Shown here piece after piece: positions 3,070 to 24,939 of a DNA stretch of 26,345 nucleotides (position 1 is the first letter of the stretch; each line of letters begins with the position of its first letter). Under the pieces are notes generated by a model. It saw only the letters and a program-made list of their open reading frames with translations. It searched no databases and was not told the origin of the DNA. Source of the stretch: a virus; IMG/VR virus record IMGVR_UViG_3300032284_003154, positions 1 to 26,345 of that record. The stretch is one strand, 5' to 3'. A program made the translations under genes and the position numbers.

Positions 3070-5319
3070 ATGAAACTATCTAAATTTGTAAAAGCTGATA
3101 AAAATATACTCATAGAGTATATCTATGATGATGGTAATAATATCAGTGATTCATATAAGATATTGCTTAATTCTAAGAGTAATTCATATTCTTATATTGC
3201 TGGTTCATCTAGTATAACCGGAAATACACCAGGTAATCAATTATTTAAAATTGATGGTGTTACTAATAATTACGGATTAGTAGATACTACAAATTATAGT
3301 TTTTTACAATTAAAAGATTATGCTTCTGGATTTCCGGTTAGACATGATACAATTAAAATTCACTTACCGGTGAATTATACATTTGGTGAATATATTGGAT
3401 GTTATTTTAGAATTTTTACTTTTGATTATAATAATAAAATTACTTATGAGTTATCAAATTTCTTTTTTGATGCTACTAATATAGATCAATCTTATTTACT
3501 AAACTACACATCTCCTCCTTTATTATATCAGGAAAAACTTTGGGGTAAAAATATAACAATAAATGTACCATCTACATTTGCGGTTTCTAACCAAAGAGTT
3601 AATGGTTCTACTAAAGTTGATACTATTAACTTTAATTTGACTAACGGAACAGGTTTAAGTCTTAATGCTCCTATATTTATTGATTTTCATTTTTTAACTA
3701 GTAGAAAAACAATTAATAGTGTAACTACTTATTACCTAACAGCCAAGACTCCTATTAGTTTACCACAAACACCTGAATTTGAAAAATTAGGTGTTAAAAT
3801 TGAACATTCTGCTAACGGTGATTTCTTTGATATCTATGGCATTTATAATGATAATATTGCAGAATTTAACTCATTTATAGTAAATTCGGTTTTTTTGGGA
3901 AACCGATATTATGTAACTTATACTATTACACTATATGAACAAAATATTAGAGGTAAAACATTTACTATTACGGTAACAGATAATTTTAATGAAAAAATTG
4001 AATATCGTCCTATCATAAAATATTCAACCACAACAGCTATTATTGATGTTGAAATGAGTGTAATTGATGCAGTAGATAACTCTTCTATATTTAGAAAAGC
4101 ATCTTATGGTATGTTACAGGATGAGGTTGCTAAATATAGCTTAAATTTAACTAAAATCAATATTGCAAATGCTCATAAGCCTAAAATTTATAATGTTAAA
4201 TCACCAGAAGGTGCTGGAATATTTGGAAATACAAAAGTTAATAATAATGTTTTAAAGCCTCAAGTAGTTATTGAAACAGTATCAATTAATAGTACAGTTC
4301 TTGCTGATAGATTTAATGTAGTTGCTAAAAGTGATAATGTACAATATGGTAAAGATACATTTTTTGGTATAGGTAAATTATTATTAAAGATTTATCCATT
4401 TGATAATGTTATCCAAATTTCAATTGCTCAAAATGTTAGTAATGATCAAAAAAATGTTGATTCCGGAAATGGTTCTAAACTTGAATATGTTTATAAACCC
4501 GAATATATGGATATGAGTAATATGGGTGAAATTAAATTAGTAATCAAGAATGATAAAATATCAAGTGATTTTGGTTTATACTTAGCTTCCAATTCAGTTG
4601 ACTTATCAACCGGTAAATTAGTATTTAAAGTAACCGCAAGTAAAATTGCTGATATTAGAAAAATATATGACTCTGGAGTAAATATTTTTTATATTACATC
4701 TAAATTAGATACAAATACGACAGTTGTTTATAGTGGATTATTTAATATGTATGATTCAAATAACAACGTCCAAAGTTTAAATAATGCAGTAGCTCAAATA
4801 CAATCAGGATTAGTTAATCCATCTCAACCAACTATTATTAATGATCCAAACAGTGTAACTAAAGCTACAGCGATAGTTACTAGAAAAATTGTAAGTGGTA
4901 ATTTACCATTAAGTGGTACTGTTTCTACAGCTAATGGTGCTTCTGTTAAAACACCTATAAACTCATCAACTGTTCAATCACAAAGTACTTCACTTAGCGC
5001 ATCAACAAAAATTGGTGGAGTTACTTATACAATAAATAGTGATAGTAGTATTACAATTGATGGATATACTTGGCAATATTCACAATTAATGTCTGTGTTG
5101 AAGTCGATGAATATCATCACATCAAATGTTAAAAATTTAAGCATACAAACCGATTCTTTATATGCTGATGGGAAGCTATTAGGCAAATTACCATCTATAA
5201 ATTTAGCTTTACAAAAAGAGTATATAACTGATTCGGATAAATTACAAACACATACTTTAACTGTTAATAATTTTAAAAATGGCACATCAACTGGTGGTAA
5301 ATCAACTGGTAGAGCTTAA
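3070..5319 (+). CDS. Large probable virion protein (tail or baseplate type)
   Basis: A 749-residue protein with no enzyme motif, rich in Asn, Ser, Thr, Ile and Tyr and predicted mostly beta. That composition is typical of phage baseplate and fibre proteins. The first 580 residues read as successive beta-sandwich-like segments. Residues about 590-670 are a low-complexity Ser/Thr/Val linker (VSTANGASVKTPINSSTVQS). After this comes a small domain with GGVTYTINSDSSITIDGYTW, then a helical end and a Gly/Ser/Thr tail (GTSTGGKSTGRA). No signal peptide or membrane segment is visible. It is followed 16 bases later by a tail-tube-like gene. TTAATATATA at 3040-3049 is a possible degenerate late promoter 20 bases before the ATG. 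I infer a structural role; the exact tail part cannot be named. Confidence 0.55.
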   Translation: MKLSKFVKADKNILIEYIYDDGNNISDSYKILLNSKSNSYSYIAGSSSITGNTPGNQLFKIDGVTNNYGLVDTTNYSFLQLKDYASGFPVRHDTIKIHLPVNYTFGEYIGCYFRIFTFDYNNKITYELSNFFFDATNIDQSYLLNYTSPPLLYQEKLWGKNITINVPSTFAVSNQRVNGSTKVDTINFNLTNGTGLSLNAPIFIDFHFLTSRKTINSVTTYYLTAKTPISLPQTPEFEKLGVKIEHSANGDFFDIYGIYNDNIAEFNSFIVNSVFLGNRYYVTYTITLYEQNIRGKTFTITVTDNFNEKIEYRPIIKYSTTTAIIDVEMSVIDAVDNSSIFRKASYGMLQDEVAKYSLNLTKINIANAHKPKIYNVKSPEGAGIFGNTKVNNNVLKPQVVIETVSINSTVLADRFNVVAKSDNVQYGKDTFFGIGKLLLKIYPFDNVIQISIAQNVSNDQKNVDSGNGSKLEYVYKPEYMDMSNMGEIKLVIKNDKISSDFGLYLASNSVDLSTGKLVFKVTASKIADIRKIYDSGVNIFYITSKLDTNTTVVYSGLFNMYDSNNNVQSLNNAVAQIQSGLVNPSQPTIINDPNSVTKATAIVTRKIVSGNLPLSGTVSTANGASVKTPINSSTVQSQSTSLSASTKIGGVTYTINSDSSITIDGYTWQYSQLMSVLKSMNIITSNVKNLSIQTDSLYADGKLLGKLPSINLALQKEYITDSDKLQTHTLTVNNFKNGTSTGGKSTGRA

Positions 5320-18550: not shown

Positions 18551-19206
18551 TCTAATTTTATATCATTATTAGGTTCTACTAATAGATATGGACCCATAAC
18601 TATGTCAGTGTGGTTATAGGTTCTATAATTTGTATTATGTACATGAAATGATTGAATTTGTAAACTTGGATTCTTAACATTATATCCTAGTTCATGATAA
18701 ATTTGAACAATTCTATTATCACATCCTGGCTTACCCATTGTGAAATTTAATCTTTCATCTGTTTTAATTGGAGACTGATATATCCAACAATCTTGTGATA
18801 GTTGACCAGTTGTTATATTTCCCCTCCAAGGGTGATTATAAAATTGTGCAAACCATTTTCCATCTTGATTTACTAAATCCCATCTTGTTAATGCAATAAA
18901 TGTATTATTAAGGTTATCATTTAGGAAAGATAATGTTTGATTGAAAAAAATATCACCATTTGATATTATACAAATTTCATTTTTCAAATTTTGATTTGAC
19001 CAATCAATAAGAAAATTATAAGTTGGTCTATTATTGATTTTAATGATCTGAATTTTATCAGATTGTATATCTAATACAGAATTATCTGATATAAATACCC
19101 ATATTTTTTTTATTTCAGAGTTTTTTATGTTTTCGTTTATACAATATTTGTATTCTATATCTCTTTGCTTATTTGATGATTGGAAATATTCAATTAGTAG
19201 ATTCAC
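18520..19206 (-). CDS. Putative glycosyltransferase, first gene of the glycan cluster
   Basis: A 228-residue protein starting at GTG (19206); the overlapping ATG one base upstream is in another frame and stops at once. IKKIWVFISDNS and IQIIKINNRPTYNFLIDWSN come early. ICIISNGDIFF at about 77-87 contains N-G-D-I as the metal-site region. ALTRWDLV and FYNHPWRGNI come next. GKPGCDNRIVQIYHELGYNV (about 158-177) is the most conserved-looking part and resembles phage and cyanophage transferases in which a D-N-R segment precedes 'GY.V.NPS'. The C-terminal part has FHVHNTNYRTYN. It heads the operon, so its upstream region should hold the operon promoter, but no clear box is visible. Family name not known. 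Confidence 0.52.
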   Translation of the reverse strand: MNLLIEYFQSSNKQRDIEYKYCINENIKNSEIKKIWVFISDNSVLDIQSDKIQIIKINNRPTYNFLIDWSNQNLKNEICIISNGDIFFNQTLSFLNDNLNNTFIALTRWDLVNQDGKWFAQFYNHPWRGNITTGQLSQDCWIYQSPIKTDERLNFTMGKPGCDNRIVQIYHELGYNVKNPSLQIQSFHVHNTNYRTYNHTDIVMGPYLLVEPNNDIKLDCQRKTIPNF

Positions 19207-19268
19207 ATATTTATTTAATTTTCTTCATATTATATATGATAATGATTGTTTGTTTTAATATATACTCT
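19207..19268. promoter_or_regulatory. Divergent intergenic region between the glycan cluster and the peptidase
   Basis: These 62 bases must carry the start signals for the - strand cluster and for the + strand peptidase. No exact TATAAATA or TAnnTTTG box is present. TTAATATATACT at 19255-19266 is repeated exactly at 26167-26178 before the last gene of the window, but here it ends only two bases before the ATG, so it is unlikely to be a normal promoter for that gene. Confidence 0.35.
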
Positions 19269-20309
19269 ATGAATATTAAAGAAACTTTTCTTAAATTAAC
19301 CGAATTTACCACACCTTATGGACATGAATCTGATCTTGAACATTTATTACCTAAAGGAATTCAAAAGGATGAATGGGGTAATTACTTTATAAAAATTGGT
19401 TCATCTGAAACACTTTTTACCTGTCACTTAGATAACTATTGTAAAGAAAAAGAAAAAATAAATCATATAATTGAAGGTAATATTATTAAAACTGATGGTA
19501 CTACAATATTAGGTGGTGATAACAAAGCTGGTGTGACCGCTATACTTTATATGATATCACAAGGTGTTCCTGGATTCTACTATTTCTTTTTAGGTGAGGA
19601 ACCGATATTATCTGGTGGTTGTTGGGGTTCAAATCAATTGGTTGAACATAAGCCCGAATTTTTAAAAGGATTTAAGAGAGCAATAGCTTTTGATAGAAAA
19701 ATGATGGGATCAATTATTACGAGACAGATGGCTCAAGATTGTTGTTCTAATCAGTTTGTAGATTCTTTAGTTGATGAGTTTGTTAAGGTTGGTTTACCGA
19801 TGCAAAAAGATAAGACTGGATATTATACGGATACTGGTAATTTTATAGAATTGATACCGGAGTGCACTAATATATCAATTGGTGTTTGGAACGAACATCA
19901 TACTAATGAGTATGTTGATATTTCTTATACTGAAAAGGTTGCAAAAGCTGCGTGTAAAATAAACTGGGAAAGTTTACCATTTATAAGAGAGCCAAAATGG
20001 TGGTTAGATGAGCCCGAATATAGTTCAAATGATGAATTTATTAAAAAGTATTCACATTTTTATAATAGAAAATCTGATGATAAAATATTTATGATTATAT
20101 CTGATGCTTTAGATGATGAGAATTATTTATTAATGAGTAGATATGGGTTTGAACCGGGTAAAGAGATGGTATTTAATAGTTGGTTTGAGGAAAAAACTAT
20201 TCGTGTTAAGGTGTTGAATGGTCAGATTGAAATGAATGGTAAAAAAATTCCAAATAGTAAAAAACTTAAAAAAACTATAATTAAGTATATAAAAAAAGAG
20301 AGTCAATAA
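19269..20309 (+). CDS. Zinc metallopeptidase with M20/M28/M42-type metal site and extra C-terminal domain
   Basis: I place the start at 19269, giving 346 residues. An upstream in-frame ATG at 19173 would add 32 hydrophobic residues but overlaps the divergent gene and its start region. Metal-site residues, counted from 19269, are H53 and D55 in TCHLDNYC, D84 in GGDNKAG (the bridging Asp), E110/E111 in LGEEP, D142 in AFDRK, and H210/H211 in WNEHHTNEYVD. This is the full five-ligand set of di-zinc peptidases of the M20, M28 and M42 type. Residues beyond about 230 (from INWESLPFIREPKW) form an additional charged segment with no match I recognise. The enzyme would trim peptides in the cytoplasm. 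It converges on clpC, and both stops lie inside one terminator. Confidence 0.78.
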   Translation: MNIKETFLKLTEFTTPYGHESDLEHLLPKGIQKDEWGNYFIKIGSSETLFTCHLDNYCKEKEKINHIIEGNIIKTDGTTILGGDNKAGVTAILYMISQGVPGFYYFFLGEEPILSGGCWGSNQLVEHKPEFLKGFKRAIAFDRKMMGSIITRQMAQDCCSNQFVDSLVDEFVKVGLPMQKDKTGYYTDTGNFIELIPECTNISIGVWNEHHTNEYVDISYTEKVAKAACKINWESLPFIREPKWWLDEPEYSSNDEFIKKYSHFYNRKSDDKIFMIISDALDDENYLLMSRYGFEPGKEMVFNSWFEEKTIRVKVLNGQIEMNGKKIPNSKKLKKTIIKYIKKESQ

Positions 20310-22473: not shown

Positions 22474-22998
22474 TTAAGCTAATCTAAATTGTATTAAGAA
22501 TTTTCTTAAAAACAAGTTCTTTTCACCACCAATTGACTCTACCCACTTATTATATTCTCTCTTATATTTCCATGGATTTATAGATGATACTAAGTCTGGT
22601 TCATAGTCTGGGTATTTAACACGATTGAATACTCTTTCATCAACTATAAAAGTAATGCCAGTTAATTGATCTCCCAAATCTGGTTCGTAAAATTCAGTAC
22701 AAAAGACACCATTATCTTTAAGTGTTTGTAAGTGTTGATTAAGTGTTCCTAGTCTTTCTGGGTTAGTATTAGTTGTACCACCGTTTAGGATGATATAGGT
22801 TTTCCAATTTTCTAACCAGTCTAAATAAGAATCAACATCTGATTGAGATATTGTTTCTTTTTTCCCTAAAATTGATTTGATTACTTTTAAAGTAAATTCG
22901 TCTTTTGTGTGTCCATATTGGATACCTTGTTGAATAGGACTAATGTTGTATGGAACTAATCCCATCATCCTAAGTTCAAGTTTATTTTTCATTTTCAT
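22474..22998 (-). CDS. Peptidyl-tRNA hydrolase 2-like protein (fold-level call)
   Basis: A 174-residue protein with a PTH2-like order of segments. ISPIQQGIQYGH (about 19-30) sits where PTH2 has its 'xKG-x-x-x-QxxHA' helix. DWLENWKTYIILNGG (about 60-74) fits the 'W-xx-x-K-VVLxV' strand. GTLNQHLQTLKDNGVF (about 83-98) is the next helix, and FYEPDLGDQLTGITFIVDER (103-122) fits the 'DAGxTxxxPGTxTxLAI' region, although the DAG triad is absent. The lysine-rich start (MKMKNKLELR) allows several Met choices; the first overlaps the GIY-YIG stop by 17 bases. I infer PTH2-like architecture, not activity, because the key Lys and Asp residues are not clearly kept. The gene begins just downstream of the homing endonuclease. 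Confidence 0.4.
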   Translation of the reverse strand: MKMKNKLELRMMGLVPYNISPIQQGIQYGHTKDEFTLKVIKSILGKKETISQSDVDSYLDWLENWKTYIILNGGTTNTNPERLGTLNQHLQTLKDNGVFCTEFYEPDLGDQLTGITFIVDERVFNRVKYPDYEPDLVSSINPWKYKREYNKWVESIGGEKNLFLRKFLIQFRLA

Positions 22999-23743
22999 TT
23001 TTCATTTTATATTTTTTTAATCCAACTCTACCTTTTTTCCATCCTAAAGAGATATAGTTATCTATTTCATTATTTTTTATTCTTTTGTTTAGAGAATTTT
23101 TATTTACCCAAATTGTATCAAAATGTGATGAAATAGTTCTTTTATTTTTCTGTAAAGTTCCCAATATCCACCCATTATCTAAATACAGTTTTACTTCATC
23201 AATATTTACTAATTTTTGAGATATACCATTATTAATTTGTTTTTTGTTCCAGTTTCTATGGCTTTTACCTTTATTTGATGTAAAAAAGTTATTGTGTACT
23301 AACTCACCATTTAAATATCTATCGTCATTTTTTGATACAAGAAATATATTACCTTCTTTATTTCTAACTAAAGTTAATCCTTTTGTTATTCCAAAATACT
23401 CAACCCCAAAAAGAGGATCCTCTTTATGAATGGATACAATTTTACCACTTTTACTAATAGCAGTTATTAGGTTGACTCTATGAAATCTACCATTAGGTAT
23501 CGAGTAGTTTCTATTTAGTGAATCATCTATACTATTAACTATGATATATCTTTCATATAATATAGCCTCTTCCATAGATTGGAAATCTGAACGTATTATT
23601 TCTTTTTTTAGATTTTTAATATTTGGCTTCCAAGTATAAGGTGATCCTAAATATTTATCTTCAAATATATTACCATCGAATTTTCTAGAACCAATATAGT
23701 ATTCATTTGTATAGATATCGGTCACTTTGTAAACATAAAACAT
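22982..23743 (-). CDS. GIY-YIG homing endonuclease, free-standing
   Basis: A 253-residue protein. The N-terminal GIY-YIG domain has VYK (4-6) in the GIY position, YIG (16-18) and R20 nearby, and E64 in LYERYII as the expected metal-binding Glu. The C-terminal half holds two similar units of about 40 residues that end in GW. One is NGISQKLVNIDEVKLYLDNG, ending WILG. The other is WVNKNSLNKRIKNNEIDNYI, ending GWKKG. These resemble the DNA-binding repeats of T4-type free-standing homing endonucleases. It should cut a specific phage DNA site to spread its own gene. Its 3' end overlaps the PTH2-like gene by 17 bases. The 45 bases before its ATG hold a TATAAATA box inside a hairpin, as in the regulation of T4 endonuclease genes. 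Confidence 0.85.
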   Translation of the reverse strand: MFYVYKVTDIYTNEYYIGSRKFDGNIFEDKYLGSPYTWKPNIKNLKKEIIRSDFQSMEEAILYERYIIVNSIDDSLNRNYSIPNGRFHRVNLITAISKSGKIVSIHKEDPLFGVEYFGITKGLTLVRNKEGNIFLVSKNDDRYLNGELVHNNFFTSNKGKSHRNWNKKQINNGISQKLVNIDEVKLYLDNGWILGTLQKNKRTISSHFDTIWVNKNSLNKRIKNNEIDNYISLGWKKGRVGLKKYKMKNENEK

Positions 23744-23745
23744 TT

Positions 23746-23786
23746 GTACGGACTTTTTTATTTATATATAAAAAGTCAATCCATAC
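23746..23786 (-). promoter_or_regulatory. Hairpin that would block the GIY-YIG start codon
   Basis: On the - strand GTATG (23786-23782) can pair with CGTAC (23750-23746, one G-U pair). GACTTTTT (23777-23770) pairs with AAAAAGTC (23758-23751). The result is a 13-bp stem with a GATT bulge and an 11-base loop, ending two bases before the ATG. It has no 3' U-run, so it is not an intrinsic terminator. Confidence 0.55.
23759..23766 (-). promoter_or_regulatory. T4-late-type promoter box (TATAAATA) in the loop of the hairpin
   Basis: Exact TATAAATA on the - strand lies in the hairpin loop. A transcript started about six bases downstream (near 23753) would lack the 5' arm of the hairpin, so its start codon would be free. 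Longer transcripts from upstream would carry the hairpin intact. The ATG is 15 bases from the box. Confidence 0.55.
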
Positions 23787-23788
23787 AT

Positions 23789-23986
23789 TTATAATTTTAA
23801 TTTTTTACAAATTTCATATTCTTCACAATCTTCAAAATATTTAATAAGTGTGAGTATTTCTTGTTGGGTTGCTTGTAATTTACCAAGATTTATTTGTAGT
23901 GCTTTATATAAAAACATTACATGATCTTTTTCTTTTTCCATTATTTCTGTTTCTCTTAGCCACTGTATTCTTTCTATTTCATTCAT
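23789..23986 (-). CDS. Small helical protein (65 aa), unknown
   Basis: A 65-residue charged, largely helical sequence. It begins MNEIERIQWLRETEIMEKEK and ends in a short acidic and Cys-containing segment (KYFEDCEEYEICKKLKL) with C53 and C59. No family is recognised. The start overlaps the upstream gene by four bases (ATGA), so it belongs to the operon that runs from the MgtC gene. It is the last gene of that operon before the homing endonuclease. A DNA- or protein-binding adaptor role is conceivable, but nothing in the sequence decides it. Confidence 0.5.
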   Translation of the reverse strand: MNEIERIQWLRETEIMEKEKDHVMFLYKALQINLGKLQATQQEILTLIKYFEDCEEYEICKKLKL

Positions 23987-24174: not shown

Positions 24175-24448
24175 AGTTAATATAGTTTTCCAATACAGAA
24201 CGGAAGCTTTCAACTTGACGATTAAGTAAGATCATTTCTTCTTCAAGATTGCCTTTTGGTCGGTAGTTTCTAAAATTTTTAACAGTTAGAAATTCCATTT
24301 GATATCCACTTTTTGTGAAAATAGTGAACAGTAAGGTTGTTGAATTTGGTCGGTTATTACCTTGTACCCAAATTTTTGAAAATTCTGGTCTAATTCTTGG
24401 TTCTATAAGATTGCTTAGGTTATGTAATGTTAATTCAAAATTTGTCAT
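24167..24448 (-). CDS. Small protein (93 aa), unknown
   Basis: Begins MTNFELTLHNLSNLIEPRIR, then has a mixed region with WVQGNNRPNSTTLLFTIFTK (about 27-46), which looks like one or two beta strands. It ends in an acidic helix (GNLEEEMILLNRQVESFRSV). No motif or membrane segment is seen. The start overlaps the CYTH stop by four bases (ATGA), so it is co-translated with it. No known family is recognised and no function is assigned. Confidence 0.5.
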   Translation of the reverse strand: MTNFELTLHNLSNLIEPRIRPEFSKIWVQGNNRPNSTTLLFTIFTKSGYQMEFLTVKNFRNYRPKGNLEEEMILLNRQVESFRSVLENYINYE

Positions 24449-24939
24449 TTTTCTATTTTTAGAGACAATGCTCGGTTACTAAATTGTTTTAATCCTGTTA
24501 CTTCGAGTAACATAATATCTTCTATGAACTTAGGAATTTTAAGGTCATATTTTTTGTTTGGAATTTCGATTTCAGCGATAATCAGATGATATCCACTATT
24601 AAATTTATCAACTTCCCATTTAAGGTCACCATCTTTGTATATCCATCTTTCTTTAGAAATATGTTTAGATTCAATTCCTGGTGACATACATTTTTTTCTA
24701 AAAGATTCGAACTGTTCTTTAGTCATTTCATATTCATCTTCCATATTCACACCTTTAGAAACTGATTTTTTTACGGTGTGTATATACATATCGCCTGTTT
24801 TATCTGAATGGTAAGTTCTAGCTCTTTCCCAGACTCCTTTTTCATTCTTAAAGTAATATTGTTCAATTTGATGAACATCATCTTCTTTAATTTTTGGCAA
24901 AGATTTAACAATGAATTTGCGTTCGATTTCTAATTTCAT
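24445..24939 (-). CDS. CYTH-domain (triphosphate tunnel) protein
   Basis: A 164-residue protein with the family signature E-x-E-x-K at residues 4-8 (EIERK), followed by the successive strands of an eight-stranded tunnel: RARTYH (about 40-45), YIHTVKKS (about 52-59), EDEYEMT (67-73), KWEVDKF (about 107-113) and IIAEIEIP (about 120-127). The last strand region has LLEVTGLKQFSNRALS. The alternating Lys, Arg and Glu residues line a tunnel that binds a triphosphate and divalent metal. Family members include class IV adenylate cyclase, thiamine triphosphatase and inorganic triphosphatases. Which activity applies here cannot be told. It overlaps its neighbours by four bases on each side. A triphosphatase or RNA-end or nucleotide-signal role is possible, but unproven. 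Confidence 0.85.
   Translation of the reverse strand: MKLEIERKFIVKSLPKIKEDDVHQIEQYYFKNEKGVWERARTYHSDKTGDMYIHTVKKSVSKGVNMEDEYEMTKEQFESFRKKCMSPGIESKHISKERWIYKDGDLKWEVDKFNSGYHLIIAEIEIPNKKYDLKIPKFIEDIMLLEVTGLKQFSNRALSLKIEK

Follow-up and report, generated by a model that had tools for sequence, protein, structure and literature searches.

The window analyzed here, an entire virus record of 26,345 bases, carries on its minus strand a gene for a 253-amino-acid (253-aa) protein that lies between a CYTH-domain gene upstream and, downstream, a 174-aa gene that we read as Pth2-like, its PHROG family being named only as a hydrolase (Table 1). A hairpin with a promoter-like box at its loop directly precedes the start codon of the 253-aa gene, and a short open reading frame (ORF) for 65 aa ends where this hairpin begins. 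The nearest named relative of the window, judged from a ClpA-like gene with 77% identity, is the 634,780-base uncultured phage LR745206.1, which is one megaphage among those treated in PMC9723777. The ClpA-like gene was also used to retrieve 80 loci of related phages, and promoter motifs were derived from 780 kb of two related huge phages (G007 and G003), with the window excluded.

Table 1. Features at the endonuclease locus of the window
Feature	Position	Strand	Basis or remark
CYTH-domain gene, upstream neighbor, marks the insertion point	24445..24939	-	Pfam CYTH, synteny
65-aa ORF, stop codon abuts the hairpin 5' arm	23789..23986	-	No relative found
5' arm, outer helix (UGUAUGGAUU), would be lost from RNA started at the box	23778..23787	-	Fold
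5' arm, inner helix (UUUUUAU), shares bases with the promoter box	23768..23774	-	Fold
Putative promoter box TTTATATATA	23763..23772	-	13.2-bit motif match; overlaps the loop
Earlier-noted box TATAAATA	23759..23766	-	Overlaps the TTTATATATA box, the loop and the 3' arm
3' arm (AUAAAAA + AGUCCGUACA), separated from the AUG by one base; would become the short leader of RNA started at the box	23745..23761	-	Fold
GIY-YIG-like stand-alone homing endonuclease gene	22982..23743	-	253 aa, ATG at 23743
Pth2-like gene, 174 aa, overlaps the endonuclease 3' end	22474..22998	-	PHROG "hydrolase"

An earlier note on this DNA, made from the letters alone, had called the 253-aa product a GIY-YIG endonuclease. 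This identity is supported by relatives and motifs, although a direct Pfam match is lacking: the N-terminus carries a GIY-YIG-like signature (YVYK...YYIGSR) that is visible in the alignment, the protein's best match among phages is to a seg-like GIY-YIG homing endonuclease (E = 3e-4), and residues 120-164 match a PHROG HNH endonuclease, whereas a Pfam search of the protein returned no endonuclease family and no GIY-YIG match. The relative L083 matches PF01541 with a score below the family cut-off. Single-sequence structure prediction for the 253-aa protein gave a mean pLDDT of 39.5. Close relatives were restricted to one protein in viral contigs, found by profile search and described below as L158; none was found in genome contigs.

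The surroundings of the gene are those of a stand-alone homing endonuclease, present in one allele, missing from syntenic relatives, and adjoining a conserved gene. In relatives without the endonuclease, the Pth2-like gene directly follows the CYTH gene; the two are at most 39 nt apart or overlap in 14 of the 19 related records that have both neighbors (a count that includes a few near-duplicates), and about 1.4 kb separates them in the window. Unrelated endonuclease-type genes, with matches to families of homing or HNH endonucleases, lie on the opposite strand at the same CYTH/Pth2-like junction in two other loci (L013, positions 813-1685, and L058, positions 3963-4658). The empty junction in the relatives, together with these other endonucleases, identifies the junction as a repeated insertion point and indicates that the leader of the window gene does not belong to the empty site. 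The Pth2-like gene is likely to be the host or target gene of the endonuclease. Terminator-like hairpins are found between the genes upstream of the endonuclease, at 25469-25440 and 24114-24090 (both minus strand).

Positions 23788-23738 (minus strand) fold into one stem-loop (-13.3 kcal/mol), whose two helices have 17 pairs in total and lie on either side of a 3-nt bulge; it spans 23787-23745 on the gene's own strand. The start-blocking hairpin that had been described as a 13-bp stem ending two bases before the ATG is thus present, with more pairs than stated and with its end one base before the ATG. It persists when folded in a 131-nt context, and its energy lies far from that of its dinucleotide shuffles (-4.5 +/- 2.2 kcal/mol), with z values of -4.0 to -4.7. 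A set of 865 leaders, taken from the window and two relatives, contains 12 with an energy of -13.3 kcal/mol or lower, the window leader belonging to this top dozen; many of the 12 are upstream hairpins of the terminator type, and within the subset of leaders that have a promoter motif of at least 12 bits, the window hairpin is the strongest. A terminator reading of the start-proximal stem was rejected, the terminator scan listing it on neither strand. By computed folding, the window leader therefore shares with T4-type leaders a stable RNA structure that covers the start and ends at or near the AUG.

What the stem covers appears to differ from the usual case. GGAG, GAGG, or AGGA precedes 3 of 375 ATG genes in G007 and 9 of 353 in G003, against a chance level of about 7 per phage in shuffles, and the window leader contains no Shine-Dalgarno site that the stem could sequester. 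As Shine-Dalgarno sites are lacking in these phages, the hairpin would mask an A-rich start region and not a ribosome-binding site.

Comparison of the regions upstream of operon-starting genes in G007 and G003 revealed a dominant motif, TTWATATATA, with A-rich sequence behind it. From 296 regions, the window excluded, a 20-base model of this motif was fitted, which has 42 matches of at least 13 bits in the two phages, 35 of which lie 16 to 45 nt before the start of a same-strand gene (0.7 expected). The genes behind the motif include those for the tail sheath, the portal, the head-tail adaptor, and a peptidase family also present in the window. Because of its position ahead of the tail sheath, portal, and adaptor genes, the most plausible reading of the box is a late promoter, which would be used late in infection. 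Weak matches to phrog_234, the late-sigma family that includes T4 gp55, were obtained in G003, G007, G030, and LR745206 (E = 5e-7 to 1.5e-5); a direct search with the T4 gp55 sequence gave no match, and neither did a phrog_12791 search.

In the endonuclease leader, the model matches TTTTTATATATAAATAAAAA at 23774-23755 (minus strand) with 13.2 bits, the second best of all positions in the window, and the last A of the box lies 19 nt from the ATG, within the 17- to 25-nt spacing class. Further copies in the window are found ahead of the genes at 3070 and 26195 and, at 19255, ahead of the peptidase gene. The peptidase ORF (19173-20309, plus strand) has a TTG as its listed start; the box, with an in-frame ATG right behind it, suggests a true start at about 19269. 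Across the G007 and G003 loci (L088 to L126), the distance from a T[AT]ATATATA box to the ATG is either 4 to 5 nt (91 of 225 box genes) or about 17 to 25 nt; given a T4-like start site, the shorter class would yield leaderless mRNAs. An exact-pattern search of viral contigs for the box plus the inner arm returned 30 scattered matches.

The earlier note had taken another word in the loop, TATAAATA, the consensus of T4 late promoters, as the late box. An exact copy is indeed there, but it lies partly in the 3' arm, and the word occurs in the window at chance frequency (9 copies versus 10.2 expected), which makes it uninformative by itself; in the relatives it shows no preference over other AT words. 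The box that is enriched in these phages is TTWATATATA. We rejected TATAAATA as the late box of this phage; it is probably not the promoter, and the evidence supports TTTATATATA, shifted by a few bases, in its place.

If transcription from TTTATATATA began 6 to 7 nt after the box, as it does at T4 late promoters, the RNA would start at 23756..23757 (minus strand) and, as in T4-type leaders, would not contain the 5' arm. RNA folded from 23753 onward is essentially unstructured, and for the 16 bases that precede the AUG, the mean probability of being unpaired increases from 0.10 in the long RNA to 0.77 in the short RNA at 37 C; the corresponding values at 20 C are 0.08 and 0.67. Removal of the 5' arm thus abolishes the computed structure; the earlier note had expected RNA made from its box to lack that arm.

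We consider hairpin-gated late translation of the endonuclease to be the best explanation of these findings, and probably the correct one. A homing endonuclease gene would have been inserted between the CYTH and Pth2-like genes together with its own control leader. In read-through RNA from the upstream genes, both arms would pair and mask the start region, and the endonuclease would be translated poorly; RNA from the late promoter at TTTATATATA would start inside the hairpin, without the 5' arm, carry an unstructured leader of about 13 nt, and be translated, so that the endonuclease would be produced mainly late. The late use of the box, the read-through RNA, and the block to translation in the cell are the steps that we infer. 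The terminator-like hairpin at 24114-24090 (minus strand) may lower read-through into the endonuclease gene.

The relative in a second phage, L158 (record G041, IMGVR_UViG_3300032304_001632), allows the layout to be compared. Its product is 56% identical to the 253-aa protein, and its gene is also near a Pth2-like gene, lying downstream of it whereas the window gene lies upstream. In the L158 leader, ATATTTATTTATA, which carries the promoter-like motif of its own phage, occupies the loop region of a hairpin (-12.9 kcal/mol, z of -3.3) with an 11-pair outer stem that stops two bases short of the ATG. The start-proximal motif of this phage differs from that of G007 and G003; as ATATTTAT, it occurs 10 times in sense and once in antisense orientation in 24 other upstream regions of G041 (0.6 expected), while TTAATATATA is absent from the same 24 regions. 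In the G041 loci L224 and L225, this motif, written as ATATTTATWWATA, is seen mostly 17 to 27 nt before the ATG. The arms of the two hairpins are unrelated (TATCGAATGTA / TACATTCGATA in L158 versus TGTATGGATT / AGTCCGTACA in the window). The layout is thus kept in two related enzymes of two phages, with arms and boxes of different sequence.

This recurrence bears on the possibility that the box is a real late promoter but that the hairpin has no translational role, being a by-product of an AT box flanked by chance sequence. The box is nearly self-complementary, which favors any stem around it; weak spanning pairs occur in many box-bearing leaders, and, as would be expected of a by-product, such leaders are as a group no more structured than others (mean z of -0.14 versus -0.13). 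However, when the arms were dinucleotide shuffled and the box was kept, just 16 of 4,000 sequences reached the energy of the window hairpin, and 88 of 4,000 folded as well as that of L158; moreover, the outer helix contains no box bases, and the stem is found again in L158 with different arms. We therefore regard a by-product as unlikely.

The comparison with L158 also concerns the 65-aa ORF. A terminating ribosome should extend over about a dozen bases past the stop codon. Since the stop codon of the 65-aa ORF lies directly at the 5' arm, a ribosome finishing this ORF could open the hairpin, in which case translation of the endonuclease would be coupled to that of the ORF and its timing would be set by the upstream promoters. 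In L158, however, about 10 nt separate the stem from the stop codon upstream of it, and an adjoining stop is therefore no requirement of the layout; the 65-aa ORF is without relatives, and coupling would leave the strong box unexplained. We judge translational coupling to be quite improbable.

More improbable still, in our view, is that the palindrome serves as a DNA operator through which the endonuclease represses its own promoter, even though the repeat in the window is centered on the box and I-TevI is known to bind an operator overlapping its late promoter (PMC2988022). An operator resembling the homing site was looked for and rejected: the best agreement between the leader and Pth2-like genes was 15 to 17 of 20 bases, no better than the shuffle maxima of 16 to 17, although this is a weak test in that the target is a presumed one. 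The arms, furthermore, are unrelated between two enzymes that are 56% identical.

Hairpin-gated late translation, as we propose it for the window gene, might be more widely used. Start-proximal structure is stronger in 45 distinct GIY-YIG leaders (median of -3.9 kcal/mol) than in 1,389 others (median of -1.2 kcal/mol), with a Mann-Whitney p of 4e-7 that is generous because the set contains related genes and the start codons were chosen by rule. Stems around an AT box are also found ahead of other GIY-YIG genes, for example, L221, L085, L160, and L168. Arms that flank the box were seen in 2 of 15 endonuclease leaders with a strong motif and in 8 of 167 others, which is no clear difference and marks the gate as a minority layout and not a rule. 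The junction endonuclease of L013 has a box four bases before its ATG, with no comparable hairpin evident. Ahead of another GIY-YIG gene, at about 1400-1440 of L166, lies a long inverted repeat (AAAGAAAGGAACT...AAGTTCCTTTCTTT). At three other genes of G007 and G003 (L093:11891, L090:6743, and L125:8865, all minus strand), a strong hairpin around the box includes the AUG (e.g., CCCCATAGG..TTATGGGG), and the gate may therefore extend beyond endonucleases.

If the gate has been rebuilt from phage to phage, each time with other arms and another box, selection for translation restricted to the late phase would have produced or reconstructed it on several occasions. We tentatively suggest, with somewhat less confidence than an even balance would warrant, that huge phages without Shine-Dalgarno sites possess a portable late gate, repeatedly rebuilt from a start-masking hairpin and the late box of the resident phage at its loop. 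The control proposed for the window gene would bring a mechanism known from T4-like phages to uncultured huge phages that have another late promoter and lack Shine-Dalgarno sites. This would suggest that homing endonucleases are generally selected for late translation and that structure at a bare start codon suffices for it. TTWATATATA would, in addition, provide a late-promoter consensus for huge phages that are known here from metagenomes alone.

The reason for such a gate need not be the one proposed in the earlier note, toxicity of the endonuclease. Removal of the I-TevI hairpin did not reduce phage viability and instead harmed intron splicing (PMC2988022), so toxicity is not an established reason even for T4. 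As the window gene is stand-alone, a benefit to splicing cannot be the reason for its late gate either.

Published hairpins mask the ribosome-binding site of I-TevI, I-TevII, I-TevIII, segB, and mobE (PMC2988022, PMC3014915). The closest parallels to the window leader are I-TevI, I-TevII, and I-TevIII, in which a promoter lies at or inside a start-proximal hairpin, the long RNA folds, and RNA from this near (late) promoter is without the 5' arm (PMC2988022, PMC3014915); I-TevI and I-TevII are, like the window gene, GIY-YIG enzymes. The window gene differs in that it does not reside in an intron, has TTTATATATA as its box and has no Shine-Dalgarno sequence for the hairpin to mask; similarity in sequence between the leaders is not established, and the window case is known from computation. 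The I-TevI-like layout put forward in the earlier note is supported by an independently derived late motif and by a homolog with different arms and box, but it does not extend to the identity of the box or to a Shine-Dalgarno site. T4 segB and mobE of Aeromonas phage Aeh1 resemble the window gene in that each is a stand-alone homing endonuclease gene that adjoins a host gene and has its translation start covered by a hairpin (PMC2988022, PMC3014915); they belong to another phage lineage with another promoter box, their ribosome-binding site is masked, and mobE encodes an HNH enzyme. In T4 gene e (lysozyme), a late start inside a hairpin likewise frees translation (PMC3014915), but this is not an endonuclease cassette, and a Shine-Dalgarno sequence is masked there and not in the window. 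The window leader would thus work like the T4-type leaders without being identical to them in kind: the arrangement itself is known from T4 and appears to recur in the window, where the sequence is unrelated and the usual ribosome-binding site is missing.
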